Shown here piece by piece: positions 3,316 to 10,608 of a stretch of DNA of 64,000 nucleotides. A program made the position numbers and the translations under genes. This DNA comes from Sphingobacteriia bacterium (GTDB lineage: Bacteria; Bacteroidota; Bacteroidia; Bacteroidales; UBA7960). The notes beneath the pieces were generated by a model. It ran no database searches. It worked only from the letters and a program-made list of their open reading frames with translations, and was not told the DNA's origin. The stretch's first letter is position 1; the number at the start of each line of letters is the position of its first letter. Location of the stretch: NCBI GenBank assembly GCA_011390575.1, contig JAABSE010000004.1, positions 1 to 64,000 of the forward strand, in the 5' to 3' direction.

Positions 3316-4893
3316 ATGAAGAATACAGTAACGTTTATCTTGTCGGTGGTAGTGCCGCTGATCATTATCACAGTCGTTCTGCGAGATGCGAAGCAGGAAA
3401 ATCCGCTGCTTGCCGAACTCAAAGAAGAATACAGTCAGCCGCACATACCCAGTGTCGACCACAGCAAGCATGAAGCTTTGCAACGGGATTTTGACAATCC
3501 CCACGAAATTACAGCCACATGCATTTCGTGCCATACAGAAAGAGGAGAAGAAATGCTCAACAGTTTCCATTTTACATGGGAACGGGAAGATTTTATTGAG
3601 GGCAGAGGCGTAACCTATCTGGGCAAAAAGAACCTGCTAAACAACTTCTGCACGGGGATTTTCTCCAATGAATCTACCTGTAACCGTTGCCATGCTGGTT
3701 TCGGATGGGAGGACATGGATTTTGATTTCACCAACCAATACAATGTGGATTGCCTGGTTTGTCATGACAATACCGGCACCTACGAGAAACTCAAAGGAGG
3801 AGCAGGTTACCCGGAGCCAAATCAGGATTTTCAAACCATCGTACAAAACGTGGGTCGTCCCACCAAAACCAATTGTGGTTACTGCCACTTCCATGGTGGT
3901 GGCGGAAACAATGTAAAACATGGTGATCTGGAAGAGGCCTTGCTCACGGCCTCACGCCAGGTAGATGTGCACATGGGAGTAGACGGAGGCAACATGGATT
4001 GTGTAGACTGCCACACAGCCACCAACCACGTGATGAAAGGAAGGTATTACGGTGTTTCGTCTTCCAACACTCGCCGAGCCACCTGCGAAGATTGTCATAC
4101 TTCAACCCCTCACATGGAATCTATGCTCAATACCCACGTTCCCAAAATAGCTTGTCAAACCTGCCACATTCCTGAGTATGCCAAAGTAAATGCCACCAAG
4201 ATGTATTGGGATTGGTCAACGGCAGGAGATTTGGAAGACGGAAAAGCTTTTGAGCTATACGATAGCCTGGGAAATCCCATCTACCAATCCATTAAGGGCG
4301 ATGCTACCTGGCAAAGCAATGTAGAGCCCGAGTACATGTGGTTCAACGGAACTGCTGATCATTTCCTTCTATCGGACAAAGTGGATACCACAGCAGCCTT
4401 TTTACCCATCAACACCTTATTTGGATCAGCCACCGACCCCGAATCACGCATCATTCCGGCGAAAGTGCACCGCGGTCGCCAACCCTATGATCCGGTTTAC
4501 CTCAGCATACTACAGGCCAAACTATGGGACAGGGAAGCAGGCAAAGGTGCCCTGTGGCTCGATCTGGACTGGGAACGCGCCCTGGAAGAAGGGATGAAAT
4601 ACCTCGATCGCCCCTACAGTGGTCAATGGGATTTTGTGGACACCGAAATGTATTTGCCGGTCAATCACATGGTATCTCCGGCCAGCGAAGCTCTTACCTG
4701 TGAGGATTGTCATTCACGCAACGACAGCAGGATGCAGTTTGTGGAAGGGGCATACATCCCCGGGAAAACAACCTATGCTGCCATTGACACCATAGGAGTA
4801 TTGCTTATCATATTATCAGTTATGGGTGTAATAACCCACGCCATCATCAGGTATATTTCTTACAGGAAAATCAACCATTCATCCAATGCATAA
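3316..4893 (+). CDS. Octaheme c-type cytochrome, tetrathionate reductase (OTR) family, membrane-anchored
   Basis: A 525-residue protein with eight CxxCH heme sites whose first cysteines are C69, C122, C146, C187, C229, C257, C280 and C462. Number and spacing (seven close together, the eighth far downstream) fit the octaheme tetrathionate reductase family, known from Shewanella OTR, which reduces tetrathionate, nitrite and hydroxylamine in vitro; the natural substrate is not settled. An N-terminal hydrophobic segment (residues 5-22) is an uncleaved anchor or signal peptide, and a second helix near the C-terminus (about 488-512) ends in basic residues, so the heme part faces the periplasm. First gene of a seven-gene operon. 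The cytochrome b gene overlaps its end by 8 bases, suggesting a complex. Rhodanese and YeeE neighbours point to a sulfur compound as substrate. Confidence 0.9.
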   Translation: MKNTVTFILSVVVPLIIITVVLRDAKQENPLLAELKEEYSQPHIPSVDHSKHEALQRDFDNPHEITATCISCHTERGEEMLNSFHFTWEREDFIEGRGVTYLGKKNLLNNFCTGIFSNESTCNRCHAGFGWEDMDFDFTNQYNVDCLVCHDNTGTYEKLKGGAGYPEPNQDFQTIVQNVGRPTKTNCGYCHFHGGGGNNVKHGDLEEALLTASRQVDVHMGVDGGNMDCVDCHTATNHVMKGRYYGVSSSNTRRATCEDCHTSTPHMESMLNTHVPKIACQTCHIPEYAKVNATKMYWDWSTAGDLEDGKAFELYDSLGNPIYQSIKGDATWQSNVEPEYMWFNGTADHFLLSDKVDTTAAFLPINTLFGSATDPESRIIPAKVHRGRQPYDPVYLSILQAKLWDREAGKGALWLDLDWERALEEGMKYLDRPYSGQWDFVDTEMYLPVNHMVSPASEALTCEDCHSRNDSRMQFVEGAYIPGKTTYAAIDTIGVLLIILSVMGVITHAIIRYISYRKINHSSNA

Positions 4894-5617
4894 CAATCCG
4901 GCCATGGCAAAAACAGAAAAAGTTTACATCTATAAATTATACGAAAGATTCTGGCACTGGACACAGGCCTTTCTGATATTCTTCCTTGCCCTCACCGGCT
5001 TCGAGGTGCATGGCTCTTTTACCTTTTTCGGGTTTGAAAATGCTGTAGACCTTCACAATAAGGCGGCATGGGCTTTCATTATCCTTACCATTTTCACCAT
5101 CTTCTGGCACTTTACTACAGGAGAATGGAAACAATACATGCCTACCACCGAAAACCTGCGGGCACAGGCAGAATATTATGTTTTCGGCATTTTCCGCAAT
5201 GCCCCCCACCCTACCCGCAAAACGGTACTGAGCAAGCTTAACCCTTTGCAAAGACTGGTGTATCTCTCTTTGAAAATCCTGGTCTTTCCGGTAATGATTG
5301 CCAGCGGTCTGGCCTACATGTTTTACCGCTACCCCAGCCAGGGAGAAATCAAGGAACTGGGAGTCAGCAGCCTGGAAGCTGTTGCATACGCCCACACCAT
5401 CGGGGCCTATTTCCTTATGGCGTTTGTTATCGTTCACCTGTACCTTATTACTACCGGGCATACCGTAACATCCAACCTGAAAGCCATGGTGACAGGATGG
5501 GAAGAACTGGAAACGGAAGAAGGAGAAATACCCGAATCCAAAACCGCGGGAGAACCGGTAGGAGAAAAACTTGATAAACCGGGAGAACAACCAGACCCAG
5601 ACCCGGAGAAAATATAA
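4886..5617 (+). CDS. Membrane cytochrome b (b561/hydrogenase-type) partner of the octaheme cytochrome
   Basis: A 243-residue integral membrane protein with about four helices and histidines placed as heme b ligands: WHW in the first helix, LHN and FWHF around the second, AYAHT and VHLYL in the last. This is the di-heme cytochrome b fold that links quinones to periplasmic redox enzymes. The C-terminal 45 residues are a polar, Pro- and Glu-rich tail. The ATG overlaps the end of the cytochrome c gene; a second ATG at 4904 (MAKTEK) is an alternative start. Likely role: moving electrons between the quinone pool and the octaheme protein. The direction cannot be read from the sequence. Confidence 0.85.
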   Translation: MHNNPAMAKTEKVYIYKLYERFWHWTQAFLIFFLALTGFEVHGSFTFFGFENAVDLHNKAAWAFIILTIFTIFWHFTTGEWKQYMPTTENLRAQAEYYVFGIFRNAPHPTRKTVLSKLNPLQRLVYLSLKILVFPVMIASGLAYMFYRYPSQGEIKELGVSSLEAVAYAHTIGAYFLMAFVIVHLYLITTGHTVTSNLKAMVTGWEELETEEGEIPESKTAGEPVGEKLDKPGEQPDPDPEKI

Positions 5618-5650
5618 ATTAACCCCTAAAAACAACCAAAACGTAAAGAG

Positions 5651-6907
5651 ATGAAGAAAGCAACAGGATTATTGGTTTTTTTGATCATTTATATTCCTTC
5701 CGTCATGGCCCAGTTCAGCATCAGTGCCGACATCAGTCCAAGGGCAGAACTCAGGCACGGATACAGGTTCCTGCCGCAGGAGAATGAAAAGCCCGCCGGC
5801 CATGTAAGCCAGCGCACCCGTTTGAACTTAGCTTTTGGAAAAGATAACATCCGCACTCATGTCGCCATTCAGGATGTCCGAATATGGGGGCAGGAACCTC
5901 AAAAGCAAAACAATCCTTCTATGGCCATACACCAGGCATGGGCAGAATTGCTCTTTACCGATAGCTTATCCCTGAAAATCGGACGTCAGGAACTACGCTA
6001 CGACAACCAACGTTTTTTTGCCATCAATGACTGGAACCAAAACGGACAGAAGCATGATATGGCACTTCTTAAATATAATTCTCCTGCAGGGGAATTCCAT
6101 TTCGGAACTGCTTTTAATCAGCCCCCCGGAGCTTTTCAGCAGTTTTATTTCTCCGACTATGGCATCAACAATTACAAATACATGAATTTCGTTTGGTTCA
6201 ACACTGCCTTAAACAGTGATGCCAACCTTTCATTGCTGGGTATTGCGGATGGATACGAAAATGAAGACAACCAACAACTGTTGTATGTAAGAGGCACCTG
6301 GTCTGCTTATCTCACCTGGCAGCTCAATGAATTTAACCTGATGGTGAACCCTGGTTTTCAGCATGGCAAAACAGCAGGCGGACAGGACATCAGCGCATTT
6401 TACTTCAGGGCTGAGGCAGCCTCCACACTGGCAGACAATGTAAATTCCATCCTGGGTCTCGAAATAATATCAGGCAATGATCCGGAAGACAATACAACTT
6501 TCAGGGTATTTAACCCTACCCATGGCGCGGGCCATAGTGAAAACGGACTAATGGATTATTTTCTCAATTATCCGGTTCACACACGGGGCGCCGGCCTTGT
6601 AAATCCTTACCTGAAAAACAAAATAAAGCTATCGGATAATACAATGTTGGGGGCAGATCTCCATCTTTTCTTCATTCAAAATGATTTTGTTTACCAGGGA
6701 GAAACCATCAACAAATACCTGGGCACTGAAATTGACCTTACCCTCAATTACCGATTCAACGATTTTACCCGAATTCTTGGGGGATTCTCCACCATGTTTG
6801 GTTCTGAATCCATGGAAATCATCAACAGGGGGGGTACGCTGGCTTCCAAAGATGAACCTGCTTATTTTGCCTACATCATGCTGAGAATCAGACCGAAATT
6901 TCTGTAA
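5651..6907 (+). CDS. Outer-membrane beta-barrel (alginate-export-like porin)
   Basis: 418 residues with a signal peptide ending near residue 20 (VMAQ), then alternating strands to a C-terminus ending in aromatic and leucine residues (IRPKFL). Conserved-looking blocks (KIGRQELRYDNQRFF; about residue 115) are those of the alginate_export-type barrel family, used in Bacteroidota for many substrates besides alginate. It follows the cytochrome b by 33 bases and precedes the rhodanese lipoprotein by 76. In this setting it more likely passes a sulfur compound (thiosulfate, tetrathionate, polysulfide) than a polysaccharide, which is inference from neighbours only. Porin plus rhodanese lipoprotein also occurs in the Geobacter extHI pair. 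Confidence 0.75.
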   Translation: MKKATGLLVFLIIYIPSVMAQFSISADISPRAELRHGYRFLPQENEKPAGHVSQRTRLNLAFGKDNIRTHVAIQDVRIWGQEPQKQNNPSMAIHQAWAELLFTDSLSLKIGRQELRYDNQRFFAINDWNQNGQKHDMALLKYNSPAGEFHFGTAFNQPPGAFQQFYFSDYGINNYKYMNFVWFNTALNSDANLSLLGIADGYENEDNQQLLYVRGTWSAYLTWQLNEFNLMVNPGFQHGKTAGGQDISAFYFRAEAASTLADNVNSILGLEIISGNDPEDNTTFRVFNPTHGAGHSENGLMDYFLNYPVHTRGAGLVNPYLKNKIKLSDNTMLGADLHLFFIQNDFVYQGETINKYLGTEIDLTLNYRFNDFTRILGGFSTMFGSESMEIINRGGTLASKDEPAYFAYIMLRIRPKFL

Positions 6908-6983
6908 ATTTGCATATTAGCAGAATACTGAAAGGCTAAAACGTCCTTTTTCCAAAAAAACACAGAACCTAAAACAAAAACAT

Positions 6984-8069
6984 ATGAACTTCTTTAAATC
7001 AACCATGAGATTGCCAGGCATACTGTTGCTGGCTTTTATATTTGCATCATGCTCCAACTCCGGCACTTCCACCGAACAAGCCAGCTCCATCAATGAAGCC
7101 GAAGTATTGCTTCAATACCTGGAAGAAAATGGAGATATCGCAAACAACCCGTCCATTCCTTTTTTCATCAATGCAGATGAGGTTTACAACAACATTGATG
7201 CGGGTACCTACCATGTTATTGATGTGCGTTCGTCGGGAGATTTTTTCCGGGGTCATATTGAAAATGCCGTAAACATTCAGCCGGAAAACATCCTGGATTA
7301 TTTCGAAAACCGTATCGAACCCAACAGCTTCGAAAAAATTACCGTAGTTTGCAACAATGCTCACCTTTCGGGTTATGTAGTGGCTATTTTAAGGATGCTG
7401 GGCTATGACAACACTTTTAACATGCGCTTTGGCATGAGTGCCTGGCACGATGATATTGCCCGCCGGTTTTGGTATGCCAACCTGTCGGACGACCTTTTGG
7501 GAAACCTTGAAACAGCCTCTCATCCTAAAAACAGCCCGGGTTCACTTCCGCAACTAAGCACAGGAAATTCCAACGGATATGAAATTTTGCGGGAAAGGGC
7601 ACAAAAAGCCCTGGAGATCAGCTGGGAGTCTGTAGCCATAGACTTTATGGATATCCTGGAAGAAAAGGAAGATTATTACGTTATCAATTACTGGCCTGAG
7701 GCACTCTACAACCAGGGACACCTGCCCGGGGCCATTCAATACAACCCCAAAAAATCCTTCCACAGCAACGAAGACATTCTCACCCTGCCTACAGACCAGC
7801 CCATTGTGGTATATTGCTTTACAGGGCAAAATGCTTCTTATGCCAATGCCCTTCTGGCGGTAATGGGCTATGAATTCCGTAGCCTGGATTATGGTGCCAA
7901 TAGTTTTATCCATCAAACCATGGTGGCAACGCAGCCTCCGGGGCGCTCATTTACCGAAAGACATGTGCAGAACTTCCCGCTGGTTAAAGCCGGACTGGAA
8001 AACATCAGCACCGAACAGTCTGTTCCGGCAGAAAAAGTGGAGGTAACAACAGCCCAGGGAGGTTGTTAA
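6984..8069 (+). CDS. Tandem-rhodanese lipoprotein with C-terminal Gly-Gly-Cys
   Basis: 361 residues. A lipobox (IFASC, lipidated C23) marks it as a lipoprotein. Two rhodanese-type domains follow, at about 60-160 and 225-305. Both keep the loop cysteine that carries persulfide: C123 (VVCNNAHLS) and C278 (VYCFTGQNAS). The second is closer to an active rhodanese, with CxxG and a short loop. After a polar arm of about 50 residues the protein ends AQGGC-stop. The four cysteines are thus the lipid anchor, two loop cysteines and the terminal residue, with none left over. It probably moves sulfane sulfur in the periplasm or at the outer membrane together with the adjacent barrel and permease. Confidence 0.88.
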   Translation: MNFFKSTMRLPGILLLAFIFASCSNSGTSTEQASSINEAEVLLQYLEENGDIANNPSIPFFINADEVYNNIDAGTYHVIDVRSSGDFFRGHIENAVNIQPENILDYFENRIEPNSFEKITVVCNNAHLSGYVVAILRMLGYDNTFNMRFGMSAWHDDIARRFWYANLSDDLLGNLETASHPKNSPGSLPQLSTGNSNGYEILRERAQKALEISWESVAIDFMDILEEKEDYYVINYWPEALYNQGHLPGAIQYNPKKSFHSNEDILTLPTDQPIVVYCFTGQNASYANALLAVMGYEFRSLDYGANSFIHQTMVATQPPGRSFTERHVQNFPLVKAGLENISTEQSVPAEKVEVTTAQGGC

Positions 8070-8142
8070 GCAAACAATTGCAATTCAGAAGATTTCTCAG
8101 GCAAAAAACCGACACAAAAAATTATTCAAACCCATTTTACCT

Positions 8143-8667
8143 ATGACAACACAAACCCGACCCAAACCCTACATGAACCCTTACCTGGCAGGTTTTCTGC
8201 TGGGGCTGGTTTTACTGGCCTCCTTTGTAATCACCGGGCGTGGACTGGGAGCCAGCGGAGCCGCCAAGGATGTAATGGCCGCAACGGTCATCAATGTTGC
8301 CCCTGAGTATGCAAGCCAGTCTTCATTTTATGATGTTTACCTGGCAAGCGAAACAGGCCCTTTTCGCTCCTGGCTGGTTGTACTTGCCATTGGCGTTATT
8401 GTGGGTGGTTTTATCAGCGGTGCATCGTCCAACCGCCTGGGACTGAAAATGGAGCGTGGACCCCGCATCAACAAGCCCACACGGGCATTGTTTGCCATTG
8501 CCGGGGGTTTACTTTTCGGGCTGGGAGCTCAGTTTGGCCGCGGTTGCACCAGCGGAGCGGCGCTCAGTGGTATGGCAGTGCTCTCTACCGGGGGTATCCT
8601 TACCATGATGGCCATTTTTGGTTCCGGCTATATGATGGCTTACTTCTTCAGAAAACTTTGGCTTTAA
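8143..8667 (+). CDS. YeeE/YedE (TsuA-like) permease, first half
   Basis: 174 residues with about four hydrophobic segments. It opens with PYLAGFLLGLVLLASF and an ITGRGLGASGA block and contains GRGCTSGAALSG near the end; C135 is its only cysteine and matches the conserved pore cysteine of the first half of YeeE. YeeE/TsuA proteins take up thiosulfate through a pore lined with conserved cysteines and are usually one chain of about 350 residues with two pseudo-symmetric halves. Here the halves are separate genes with 24 bases between them and should assemble into one transporter. Confidence 0.85.
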   Translation: MTTQTRPKPYMNPYLAGFLLGLVLLASFVITGRGLGASGAAKDVMAATVINVAPEYASQSSFYDVYLASETGPFRSWLVVLAIGVIVGGFISGASSNRLGLKMERGPRINKPTRALFAIAGGLLFGLGAQFGRGCTSGAALSGMAVLSTGGILTMMAIFGSGYMMAYFFRKLWL

Positions 8668-8691
8668 CCCAACAAAAAAAAAGATTGTAAT

Positions 8692-9915
8692 ATGGCACCA
8701 TTTATTCCCGAGGGTATTGTAAACCCCGAATTAAACCTTTTCTTTGCCTTGCTGCTGGGTATAGGTTTCGGCTATGTGCTCGAACAAGCCGGTTTTTCTT
8801 CTTCACGCAAACTGGCTGGCGTATTTTACGGGTACGATTTTGTTGTGCTGCGCGTATTCTTTACTGCCGGAGTTACAGCCATGGTAGGATTAACTTTCTT
8901 AAGCTTTATGGGTTGGATCGACATGAGCCTTGTGTATGTCAATCCCCTCTTTCTGTGGTCAGCCATTGTAGGGGGTGCTATTATGGGGCTCGGATTTATC
9001 CTGGGGGGATATTGCCCGGGAACCAGCATCGTGGCAGCAACCGTAGGAAAACTTGATGCTATGCTATTCCTGGTAGGCGCCGTGACAGGCATCTTTATTT
9101 TCGGTCATTTTTATAACGACTGGGAATCTTTCTACAATGGCAGTTTCCTGGGTAATCCCTTTATTTACGAAACCTTTGGCATGCCCCGTTCATGGTTTGC
9201 CTTTGCCCTGGTCATCGTTGCTGTTCTGGCCTTTGCCATCACCCAGCGTATTGAAGACAATGTAAACCAGACCCCTAAAGAGATAATCAGCCAGCGTCCA
9301 TCTTACGTTATGCCGGGAATGCTGCTTATTCTTTCTATGTTTGCCTTGCTTTTTCTCCCCGAACAACGCAAAAGCAACGCGCAGGAAGTACCTCCCCATG
9401 AATTGCTGGCCATGTTGCAACAAAACGACAGGTTTGTGGATGTGGAAGAGGCAACCTACAAGATCATTCAACAGGACAGAGACTTTATCCTGATTGATGT
9501 GAGAGAACCGGAAGAGTTTGAAAGATTTGCCCTGCCCGGTGCGATCAATATCACCATGGATGAGTTGCTGGGAAGACGATACAGAGAGTTCTTCAGCGAC
9601 AACAAAGAAAAAAAGGTGTTTTACAGTTATGGCGAGAGCTCTGCAGACATGGCCTGGACGGTTGCCAAACGGGCAGGTTTTGAAGAGATTTACGTGCTGC
9701 AGGGAGGACTTAACGGAATGTTCGACACCTTGTTTAACGGATCGGATGTACCCGAAGACCCCAAAAACATGGATGAAGAGTTTTCGGTGCGCTTTATTAC
9801 CAAGGCACGTCAAATGTTTAAGGAAGGCGAGGCATTGCCCAAAGAAGCCACCCAGCCGGTTCCTGTAAGAACCATTATTGAACTGGAAACTCCCGGAGGA
9901 AGAGGAGGATGTTAA
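8692..9915 (+). CDS. YeeE/YedE permease second half fused to a rhodanese-like domain, C-terminal Gly-Gly-Cys
   Basis: 407 residues. Residues 1-190 form the second YeeE half, with GGYCPGTSIVAA carrying the conserved C108. A further helix (about 205-221) leads into a rhodanese-like domain (about 245-340) with the typical DVREPEEF and a final LQGGLNGM block. The loop that should hold the catalytic cysteine reads FYSYGESS: Y311 stands at the cysteine position, so classical sulfurtransferase chemistry there is not expected. A polar, Pro-rich arm follows and the protein ends GGRGGC-stop. Its only cysteines are C108 in the pore and the terminal C407. The fusion places a sulfur-carrying arm directly on the transporter. 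Confidence 0.87.
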   Translation: MAPFIPEGIVNPELNLFFALLLGIGFGYVLEQAGFSSSRKLAGVFYGYDFVVLRVFFTAGVTAMVGLTFLSFMGWIDMSLVYVNPLFLWSAIVGGAIMGLGFILGGYCPGTSIVAATVGKLDAMLFLVGAVTGIFIFGHFYNDWESFYNGSFLGNPFIYETFGMPRSWFAFALVIVAVLAFAITQRIEDNVNQTPKEIISQRPSYVMPGMLLILSMFALLFLPEQRKSNAQEVPPHELLAMLQQNDRFVDVEEATYKIIQQDRDFILIDVREPEEFERFALPGAINITMDELLGRRYREFFSDNKEKKVFYSYGESSADMAWTVAKRAGFEEIYVLQGGLNGMFDTLFNGSDVPEDPKNMDEEFSVRFITKARQMFKEGEALPKEATQPVPVRTIIELETPGGRGGC

Positions 9916-9990
9916 CAACAAAACAAATACCCCCTTCGCTCCCCGAAGATATTTCAGAAATTATAACAACAGAAGCTAAAAAAGTAAACC

Positions 9991-10608
9991 ATGAATAATA
10001 CCAGCAAACTTAATCACATCAGCCTGCTTGCCTTTGCATTTGTAGCCATTGTGGTAGTGGTGAATTTGTTTACTACCAACAATTACGGACGCTCCAACAG
10101 CCAGGTAGTGAATGCCATAACAGAAACCAACCCATTGATGAACTACCATCAACTACGAAATATCGCTGATGGGAAAACCAATGATTTTGTCCTGGTCGAC
10201 CTTCGTTCAGAGGAAGATTTTTTGAATGGTCACCTGCCTTCGGCTATCAACATTCCTTTTGCCAGTTTGCTCGAAAAGCAGAGCATCAAAACCCTGAACA
10301 GGCTAAAGGATCAAACTCCTGTTTTGTATGGCGCAAAGGAATCAGACGCCCAGAATGCCCGACTACTCTTACTGGCCAAAGGGCTCGATAAAAACATCAT
10401 GGTATTGGGCGGGAATTACGAAAGTGCTCTCAGGTATGCCGTGAAAGATTTCCAGCCTGCATTTTCCAGCTTTAGCGAAGAGAAAGCCCGGTTTGACTAC
10501 CCAAGACTTATGGGTGTGCCGCAAGCAGGGCCCAAAGAAGACAATCAACCTGCCGGCATTATACCTGCAGTAAAAACAGAGACACTCAGTGCACAGGGAG
10601 GCTGCTAA
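9991..10608 (+). CDS. Membrane-anchored rhodanese-like protein with a single, C-terminal cysteine
   Basis: 205 residues: short polar start, one membrane helix (about 9-27), a rhodanese-like domain (about 45-150) with VDLRSEEDFLNGHLPSAINIP, and a flexible arm ending SAQGGC-stop. At the catalytic loop the sequence is LYGAKESDAQ, with G114 in place of cysteine. C205, the last residue, is the only cysteine in the protein, so any thiol chemistry must use it. The domain should face the periplasm. Last gene of the operon, 75 bases after the YeeE-rhodanese fusion; no clear terminator follows. Confidence 0.87.
   Translation: MNNTSKLNHISLLAFAFVAIVVVVNLFTTNNYGRSNSQVVNAITETNPLMNYHQLRNIADGKTNDFVLVDLRSEEDFLNGHLPSAINIPFASLLEKQSIKTLNRLKDQTPVLYGAKESDAQNARLLLLAKGLDKNIMVLGGNYESALRYAVKDFQPAFSSFSEEKARFDYPRLMGVPQAGPKEDNQPAGIIPAVKTETLSAQGGC

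Follow-up and report, generated by a model that had tools for sequence, protein, structure and literature searches.

Rhodanese-like proteins with a conserved C-terminal Gly-Cys tail, candidate sulfur carriers encoded beside half-size YeeE genes and OTR or Psr-like redox enzymes

The window analyzed here, a 64,000-nucleotide stretch of DNA (contig JAABSE010000004.1, positions 1 to 64,000, of the Sphingobacteriia bacterium assembly GCA_011390575.1), carries on its plus strand an operon at 3316–10608 that encodes, in this order, an octaheme cytochrome of the OTR family, a cytochrome b561-type protein, an outer-membrane barrel, a lipoprotein with two rhodanese domains, the two YeeE halves (A alone, B as a fusion with a rhodanese domain) and a single membrane-anchored rhodanese (Table 1). 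Re-reading of the open reading frames confirmed that the three rhodanese proteins end at 8069, 9915 and 10608 in AQGGC, GRGGC and AQGGC, with TAA as stop codon in every case, as the initial annotation had described. It had also assigned rhodanese-like domains to all three, and their PF00581 scores of 106, 53 and 45 bits indeed exceed the curated cut-off of 22.2. The terminal cysteine is, as claimed, the sole cysteine of the 205-residue protein. The 407-residue fusion contains only the cysteine of the pore motif GGYCPGTS and that of the tail, and the 361-residue lipoprotein only those of the lipobox, the two loops and the tail.

Table 1. Genes and C-terminal tails of the operon in the window
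Feature	Position	Strand	Evidence and details
Octaheme c-type cytochrome, OTR family, with C-terminal transmembrane helix	3316–4893	+	TIGR04315, 555 bits (cut-off 375); 1sp3, E 6e-122
Cytochrome b561-type membrane subunit, probable quinone partner of OTR	4886–5617	+	PF01292, 2.6e-28; top NCBIfam match thiosulfate reductase cytochrome B, under that model's cut-off
Outer-membrane beta-barrel, Alginate_exp family	5651–6907	+	PF13372, 4.2e-14; position kept in same-genus loci
Double-rhodanese lipoprotein, 361 residues	6984–8069	+	PF00581, two stretches; lipobox Cys23 (7050–7052), loop Cys123 (7350–7352) and Cys278 (7815–7817), tail Cys361
GGC-stop tail, double rhodanese	8058–8069	+	Sequence (GGA GGT TGT TAA)
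YeeE half A (PmpA-like)	8143–8667	+	PF04143, 3.7e-19; one Cys, in RGCTSG (8545–8547)
YeeE half B (PmpB-like) fused via a transmembrane helix to rhodanese, 407 residues	8692–9915	+	PF04143 and PF00581; pore Cys108 (9013–9015), tail Cys407; rhodanese domain without loop Cys
GGC-stop tail, YeeE-rhodanese fusion	9904–9915	+	Sequence (GGA GGA TGT TAA)
Single-domain membrane-anchored rhodanese, 205 residues, loop Cys absent	9991–10608	+	PF00581, 1.9e-11; N-terminal hydrophobic segment
GGC-stop tail, single rhodanese	10597–10608	+	Sequence (GGA GGC TGC TAA)

The entire 4.1 Mb assembly was scanned for GGN-GGN-TGY followed by a stop codon, which gave 62 places with TGG included. When the frames at these places were read, the three operon proteins were the only credible genes with this end; two further open reading frames of more than 100 residues lie antisense to longer genes. 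The three tails are, moreover, written in three different codon sets (GGAGGTTGT, GGAGGATGT and GGAGGCTGC). In the related loci described below, none of about 1,083 other genes ends in GC, two apparent background hits being family members that had been omitted from the set. The scan and this background of neighboring genes together rule out a chance origin, which the initial annotation had thought unlikely. The other rhodaneses of the same genome are without the operon-type tail. One own-genome rhodanese (L007; G000:C109:62607-62885) has a different, Cys-rich end, SGCGCGCGPVSGEPNGGCC (CGCGCG...NGGCC), and two more rhodaneses lie nearby on its contig.

Related loci were sampled as 80 named loci, chosen by similarity to the YeeE half alone, 35 loci of near relatives and 40 loci from genomes sampled evenly across the phylum. 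Tailed loci span Bacteroidota, Ignavibacteria, Acidobacteriota, Armatimonadota and LCP-89. Of the 140 rhodaneses adjacent to YeeE in the 80 named loci, 132 terminate in GGC plus zero to three residues; with duplicates removed, all sets together (140 loci) contain 238 such rhodaneses, and 227 of them have the end (G)GC(x). Homologues thus do not drop the tail at random. These two counts are the independent evidence for the tail; alignments A2 and A3 were built from members picked for having it, so that invariance in their tail columns adds nothing independent. Across 24 aligned members that share about 20% identity, invariance is limited to Asp70, Gly204 and Cys205; in the alignment of the double-rhodanese lipoprotein, the lipobox cysteine and the GGC are both invariant. 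The strict GGC first noted holds for the operon but not for distant members, in which the terminal Gly-Cys is the invariant part (EGC, MGC, VGC), with ends such as KKKKEGC and LVRMGC, and some of which have one residue beyond the cysteine (GGCS, GGCG, GGCE). A rhodanese ending in RLRRRGC lies beside a YeeB-like match on a Gemmatirosa plasmid, and in Acidobacteriota the end KKRKSVGC occurs on a metallo-beta-lactamase–triple-rhodanese protein. At the acidobacterial locus L249 (8154–10253 and 5611–7623, minus strand), the protein with this tail adjoins a YeeE–triple-rhodanese fusion that is without one.

The 11 exceptions include several other rhodaneses encoded further away; most of those left are truncated or frameshifted, and one has an unresolved base near its end. 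The losses at L060, L063 and L077 resemble truncation or frameshift, and read-through past their stops revealed no in-frame TGA in place of the cysteine, ruling out a replacement by selenocysteine at these loci. The tail cysteine is encoded by TGC in 101 cases and by TGT in 89, and all four glycine codons and all three stop codons occur, which points to selection on the protein; codons and stops that vary this freely rule out a motif in the DNA or RNA around the stop. At the protein level, the extreme C-terminal position and the conserved Gly-Gly might suggest a sorting or anchoring signal that is processed or lipidated at the terminal cysteine. We consider this most improbable: the proteins are already anchored by a lipobox, an N-terminal transmembrane segment or the YeeE fusion, no hydrophobic segment precedes the motif, no other protein of the genome has the tail, and one extra residue after the cysteine is tolerated.

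When all domains were aligned to one rhodanese model, the loop cysteine was present in 70 of 75 domains of double rhodaneses; 6 of 110 single-domain proteins have it, and all 93 fused domains lack it. By this residue, all 93 fused and 104 of the 110 single-domain forms fall outside the catalytic rhodaneses and thiosulfate sulfurtransferases, and only the lipoprotein falls within them. In the fused and single-domain members, the tail cysteine is instead the most conserved residue, and it is the sole cysteine of the reading frame in 68 of 100 tailed single-domain proteins. With the loop cysteine absent and the terminal Gly-Cys invariant, the place of the sulfur-capable cysteine in such forms has in effect shifted from the loop to the tail end. 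The thiols could, of course, serve to bind a metal or metalloid (As, Hg or Cu) rather than sulfur, and metalloid-handling selenoproteins with C-terminal cysteine motifs have been described (PMC13188914). However, each tail offers one cysteine with no histidine or second cysteine close by, and in the clusters examined no metal genes were seen, the neighbors being genes of sulfur respiration, which makes metal binding quite unlikely.

In AlphaFold2 models, the lipoprotein domains have a pLDDT (predicted local distance difference test) above 90, which falls below 50 from residue 344; in the fusion, the rhodanese domain is confidently predicted and residues 386–407 have a pLDDT below 50. The tails are therefore predicted to be disordered. 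The initial annotation had described a flexible polar arm of 50–60 residues; flexibility is borne out by these models, but the stretch following the domain measures about 37–50 residues here, of which the last 20 or so are predicted to be disordered. Searches with the tailed proteins against solved structures and folds returned only the generic rhodanese fold. The positive charges of YeeE half B lie in loops 36–45 and 190–206, with none at the N-terminus or in loop 74–87, a positive-inside pattern that places the rhodanese of the fusion, by prediction, on the periplasmic side. The lipoprotein and the exported redox enzymes are consistent with a periplasmic location.

A disordered tail might also fold back in cis, so that its terminal cysteine fills the emptied pocket and the protein acts as a sulfurtransferase with a relocated catalytic cysteine, not as a carrier. 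The loop cysteine is lost in exactly the tailed fused and single-domain proteins, and a tail reaching some 50 residues past the domain would be long enough. This explanation is nevertheless unlikely in our view: the double rhodanese bears loop cysteine and tail alike, the model gives no confident placement of the tail in the pocket, and the strict linkage to YeeE would go unexplained.

The constant partner of the tailed rhodaneses is a pair of half-size YeeE proteins, which is in part a result of the search design. The PF04143 matches of the two proteins cover opposite halves of the profile, and the cysteine of GGxCPGTS is invariant in 58 of 58 aligned sequences. For a reverse search, a profile built from the tailed rhodaneses was run against 247 genomes from the phylum; among the matches listed, those that reach the tail occur only where a YeeE half-pair is encoded, and other rhodaneses match the domain alone. 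A plasmid-borne YeeE pair of Sulfuricella has no adjoining rhodanese.

The redox partner, in contrast to the YeeE pair, is exchangeable. Out of 141 loci, 81 encode OTR with cytochrome b, 37 PsrA plus PsrC, one both and 22 neither. The last group consists mostly of contig ends, both partners being truly absent from four Balneola-like loci (a tentative lineage label). At the loci L212, L213, L215 and L223, the YeeE pair is accompanied by a rhodanese ending in RMGC, with no OTR or Psr gene nearby, and a second, tail-less rhodanese precedes the pair. Clustering with OTR-type cytochromes, raised initially, is thus common but not defining, and an OTR-specific tail is ruled out. The Phs/Psr-like clusters without OTR encode a PhsA/PsrA-like molybdenum subunit, a 4Fe-4S protein and an NrfD membrane subunit, the latter two with Fer4 and NrfD Pfam matches; full-length molybdenum subunits score 454–475 bits with the PhsA model against an equivalog cut-off of 694, an assignment at family level only. 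The OTR of the window has eight CxxCH hemes. Its 16 heme cysteines and one non-heme cysteine, Cys112, are invariant in 78 of 78 cluster OTRs; in 1sp3, the structure of the Shewanella OTR, Cys112 has residue 64 as its aligned counterpart. Reports on the Shewanella enzyme name nitrite, hydroxylamine and tetrathionate alike as substrates (PMC4484225), and a divergent SoxY with SoxZ has been found adjoining an otr gene (PMC11237559).

Tails encoded at one locus resemble each other more (31% identity) than tails from different loci (12%; 0 of 500 permutations), as would be expected if they meet one common partner. This resemblance, the presence of up to three tailed proteins per operon, and the invariant cysteines in OTR (non-heme) and YeeB (pore) would also suit a redox tether or switch, in which disulfides link the tail cysteines to one another, to OTR or to the YeeE pore cysteines and serve complex assembly or channel gating, no sulfur being carried. 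Many clusters, however, encode a single tailed protein, in the fused form only; the partner with the spare cysteine can be swapped for an unrelated molybdenum enzyme while the tail stays; and the rhodanese scaffold favors sulfur chemistry. We therefore judge a tether to be improbable as well.

Tail conservation, loss of the loop cysteine, linkage to YeeE and exchange of the redox partner, all read from sequence, together with the disordered tail and the periplasmic side predicted by the models, lead us to propose, with a probability of roughly 60%, that the tailed rhodaneses are periplasmic sulfur carriers tethered to the membrane, in which a disordered C-terminal arm ending in (Gly)Gly-Cys bears the sulfur-binding cysteine and passes sulfur between a redox enzyme and the YeeE pore. 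The cargo of the arms would be persulfide (sulfane) sulfur or a thiosulfonate group, moved between the Cys-lined pore of the YeeE half-pair and the periplasmic redox enzyme, which would be OTR with cytochrome b here and a Phs/Psr-like complex elsewhere. In the single-domain and fused forms, the rhodanese fold would probably be a docking or anion-binding body, with the tail cysteine bearing the sulfur; where the double-rhodanese lipoprotein is present, its loop cysteines would probably load or unload the arms. On the cytoplasmic side, the cysteine of YeeD has been described as the next one, taking thiosulfate at the cytoplasmic exit (PMC11073785). The initial annotation had already suggested swinging arms: retention of the tail in 227 of 238 proteins, its disorder in the models and the missing loop cysteine of the fused and single-domain forms partly bear this out, while we infer the chemistry, namely the sulfur species carried, the direction of transfer and the docking at pore or heme.

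Several observations weigh against the carrier proposal. Tail-less members exist at L060, L077 and the frameshifted or truncated L084/L085; the unresolved base lies near the end of the member at L119. The double-rhodanese lipoprotein retains its loop cysteine, and its tail is no simple substitute for it. The YeeE part of the fusion model is of moderate confidence only, with an overall predicted template modeling score (pTM) of 0.53, and the tail, with a pLDDT below 50, is not assigned a docked position by the models. For the single-domain forms, the periplasmic location rests on a weak positive-inside bias (46 versus 29 proteins).

The proposed arrangement has parallels in several known systems. 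SoxY is likewise a periplasmic carrier with its binding cysteine on a flexible, Gly-flanked C-terminal arm, and it has been proposed as the donor to the YeeE-like SoxT; the terminal GGC on a predicted disordered tail matches this arm anatomically. SoxY, however, combines its own fold with GGCGG, in contrast to the rhodanese with terminal cysteine found here, where SoxXAB and SoxZ are lacking. SoxY (PF13501) has no match in the own genome and is absent from 58 of 59 relatives, ruling out membership in the Sox system, and the tailed proteins, YeeE aside, match PF00581 only and contain neither a SoxY nor a DsrC domain. DsrC moves sulfur between enzymes with a Gly-Cys motif on a flexible C-terminal arm, but it is cytoplasmic, has another fold and a penultimate cysteine (GCV), and its partner is DsrAB, so that only the anatomy of the arm is comparable. 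The arm principle would be convergent with those of SoxY and DsrC, and the tailed rhodaneses belong to neither. At the locus L251, a YeeE-rhodanese gene with the end KRKEGC has as a near neighbor a reading frame that finishes in KVAGLPKPDGCV, as DsrC typically does, which places two putative swinging-arm proteins together.

Among other periplasmic rhodaneses, Sud, the polysulfide-sulfur transferase of Wolinella, has a single essential cysteine and feeds a Psr-type respiratory enzyme. It carries its sulfur on the loop cysteine and has no GC tail, the reverse of the situation here, and its structure (1qxn) gave a weak match. PmpA and PmpB are, like the YeeE proteins of the operon, two short halves with one conserved pore cysteine each; here, in contrast, half B often carries a tailed rhodanese as a fused domain, and the two halves are linked to OTR or to a Psr-like complex. 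The OTR of the window aligns over the full length of 1sp3, including the cysteine at residue 64, and differs in its additional C-terminal transmembrane helix and in its association with a cytochrome b subunit, YeeE and tailed rhodaneses.

Searches of the open literature, with subscription papers outside their scope, gave no description of a rhodanese family with this tail, in agreement with the initial annotation. Scaffold, transporter, cytochrome and arm principle are each known; the combination, on a rhodanese, of a lost loop cysteine with a conserved terminal cysteine arm is not described in the papers searched. At even odds, these multi-phylum rhodaneses join SoxY and DsrC as a third class of sulfur carriers with a swinging arm, with a periplasmic cysteine that would hand sulfur to or from a half-size YeeE pore coupled to OTR or Psr respiration. 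If so, OTR, whose physiological role is unsettled, would gain a carrier-bound physiological substrate. Because the terminal cysteine is conserved, easily mutated and common to the carriers of the operon, and OTR and Psr are exchangeable, both this role and the handover of zero-valent sulfur between periplasmic respiratory enzymes and YeeE-type pores are directly testable, also in cultured hosts such as Maribacter and Carboxylicivirga. Many proteins annotated as rhodaneses beside YeeE genes should, with due caution, not be taken for loop-cysteine sulfurtransferases.

Two minor observations concern the gene neighborhood. The Alginate_exp barrel, encoded between cytochrome b and the lipoprotein, has matches in the closest relatives only. 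The locus L102 contains two YeeE-rhodanese sets within 18 kb, the second of which lies behind OTR and cytochrome b.

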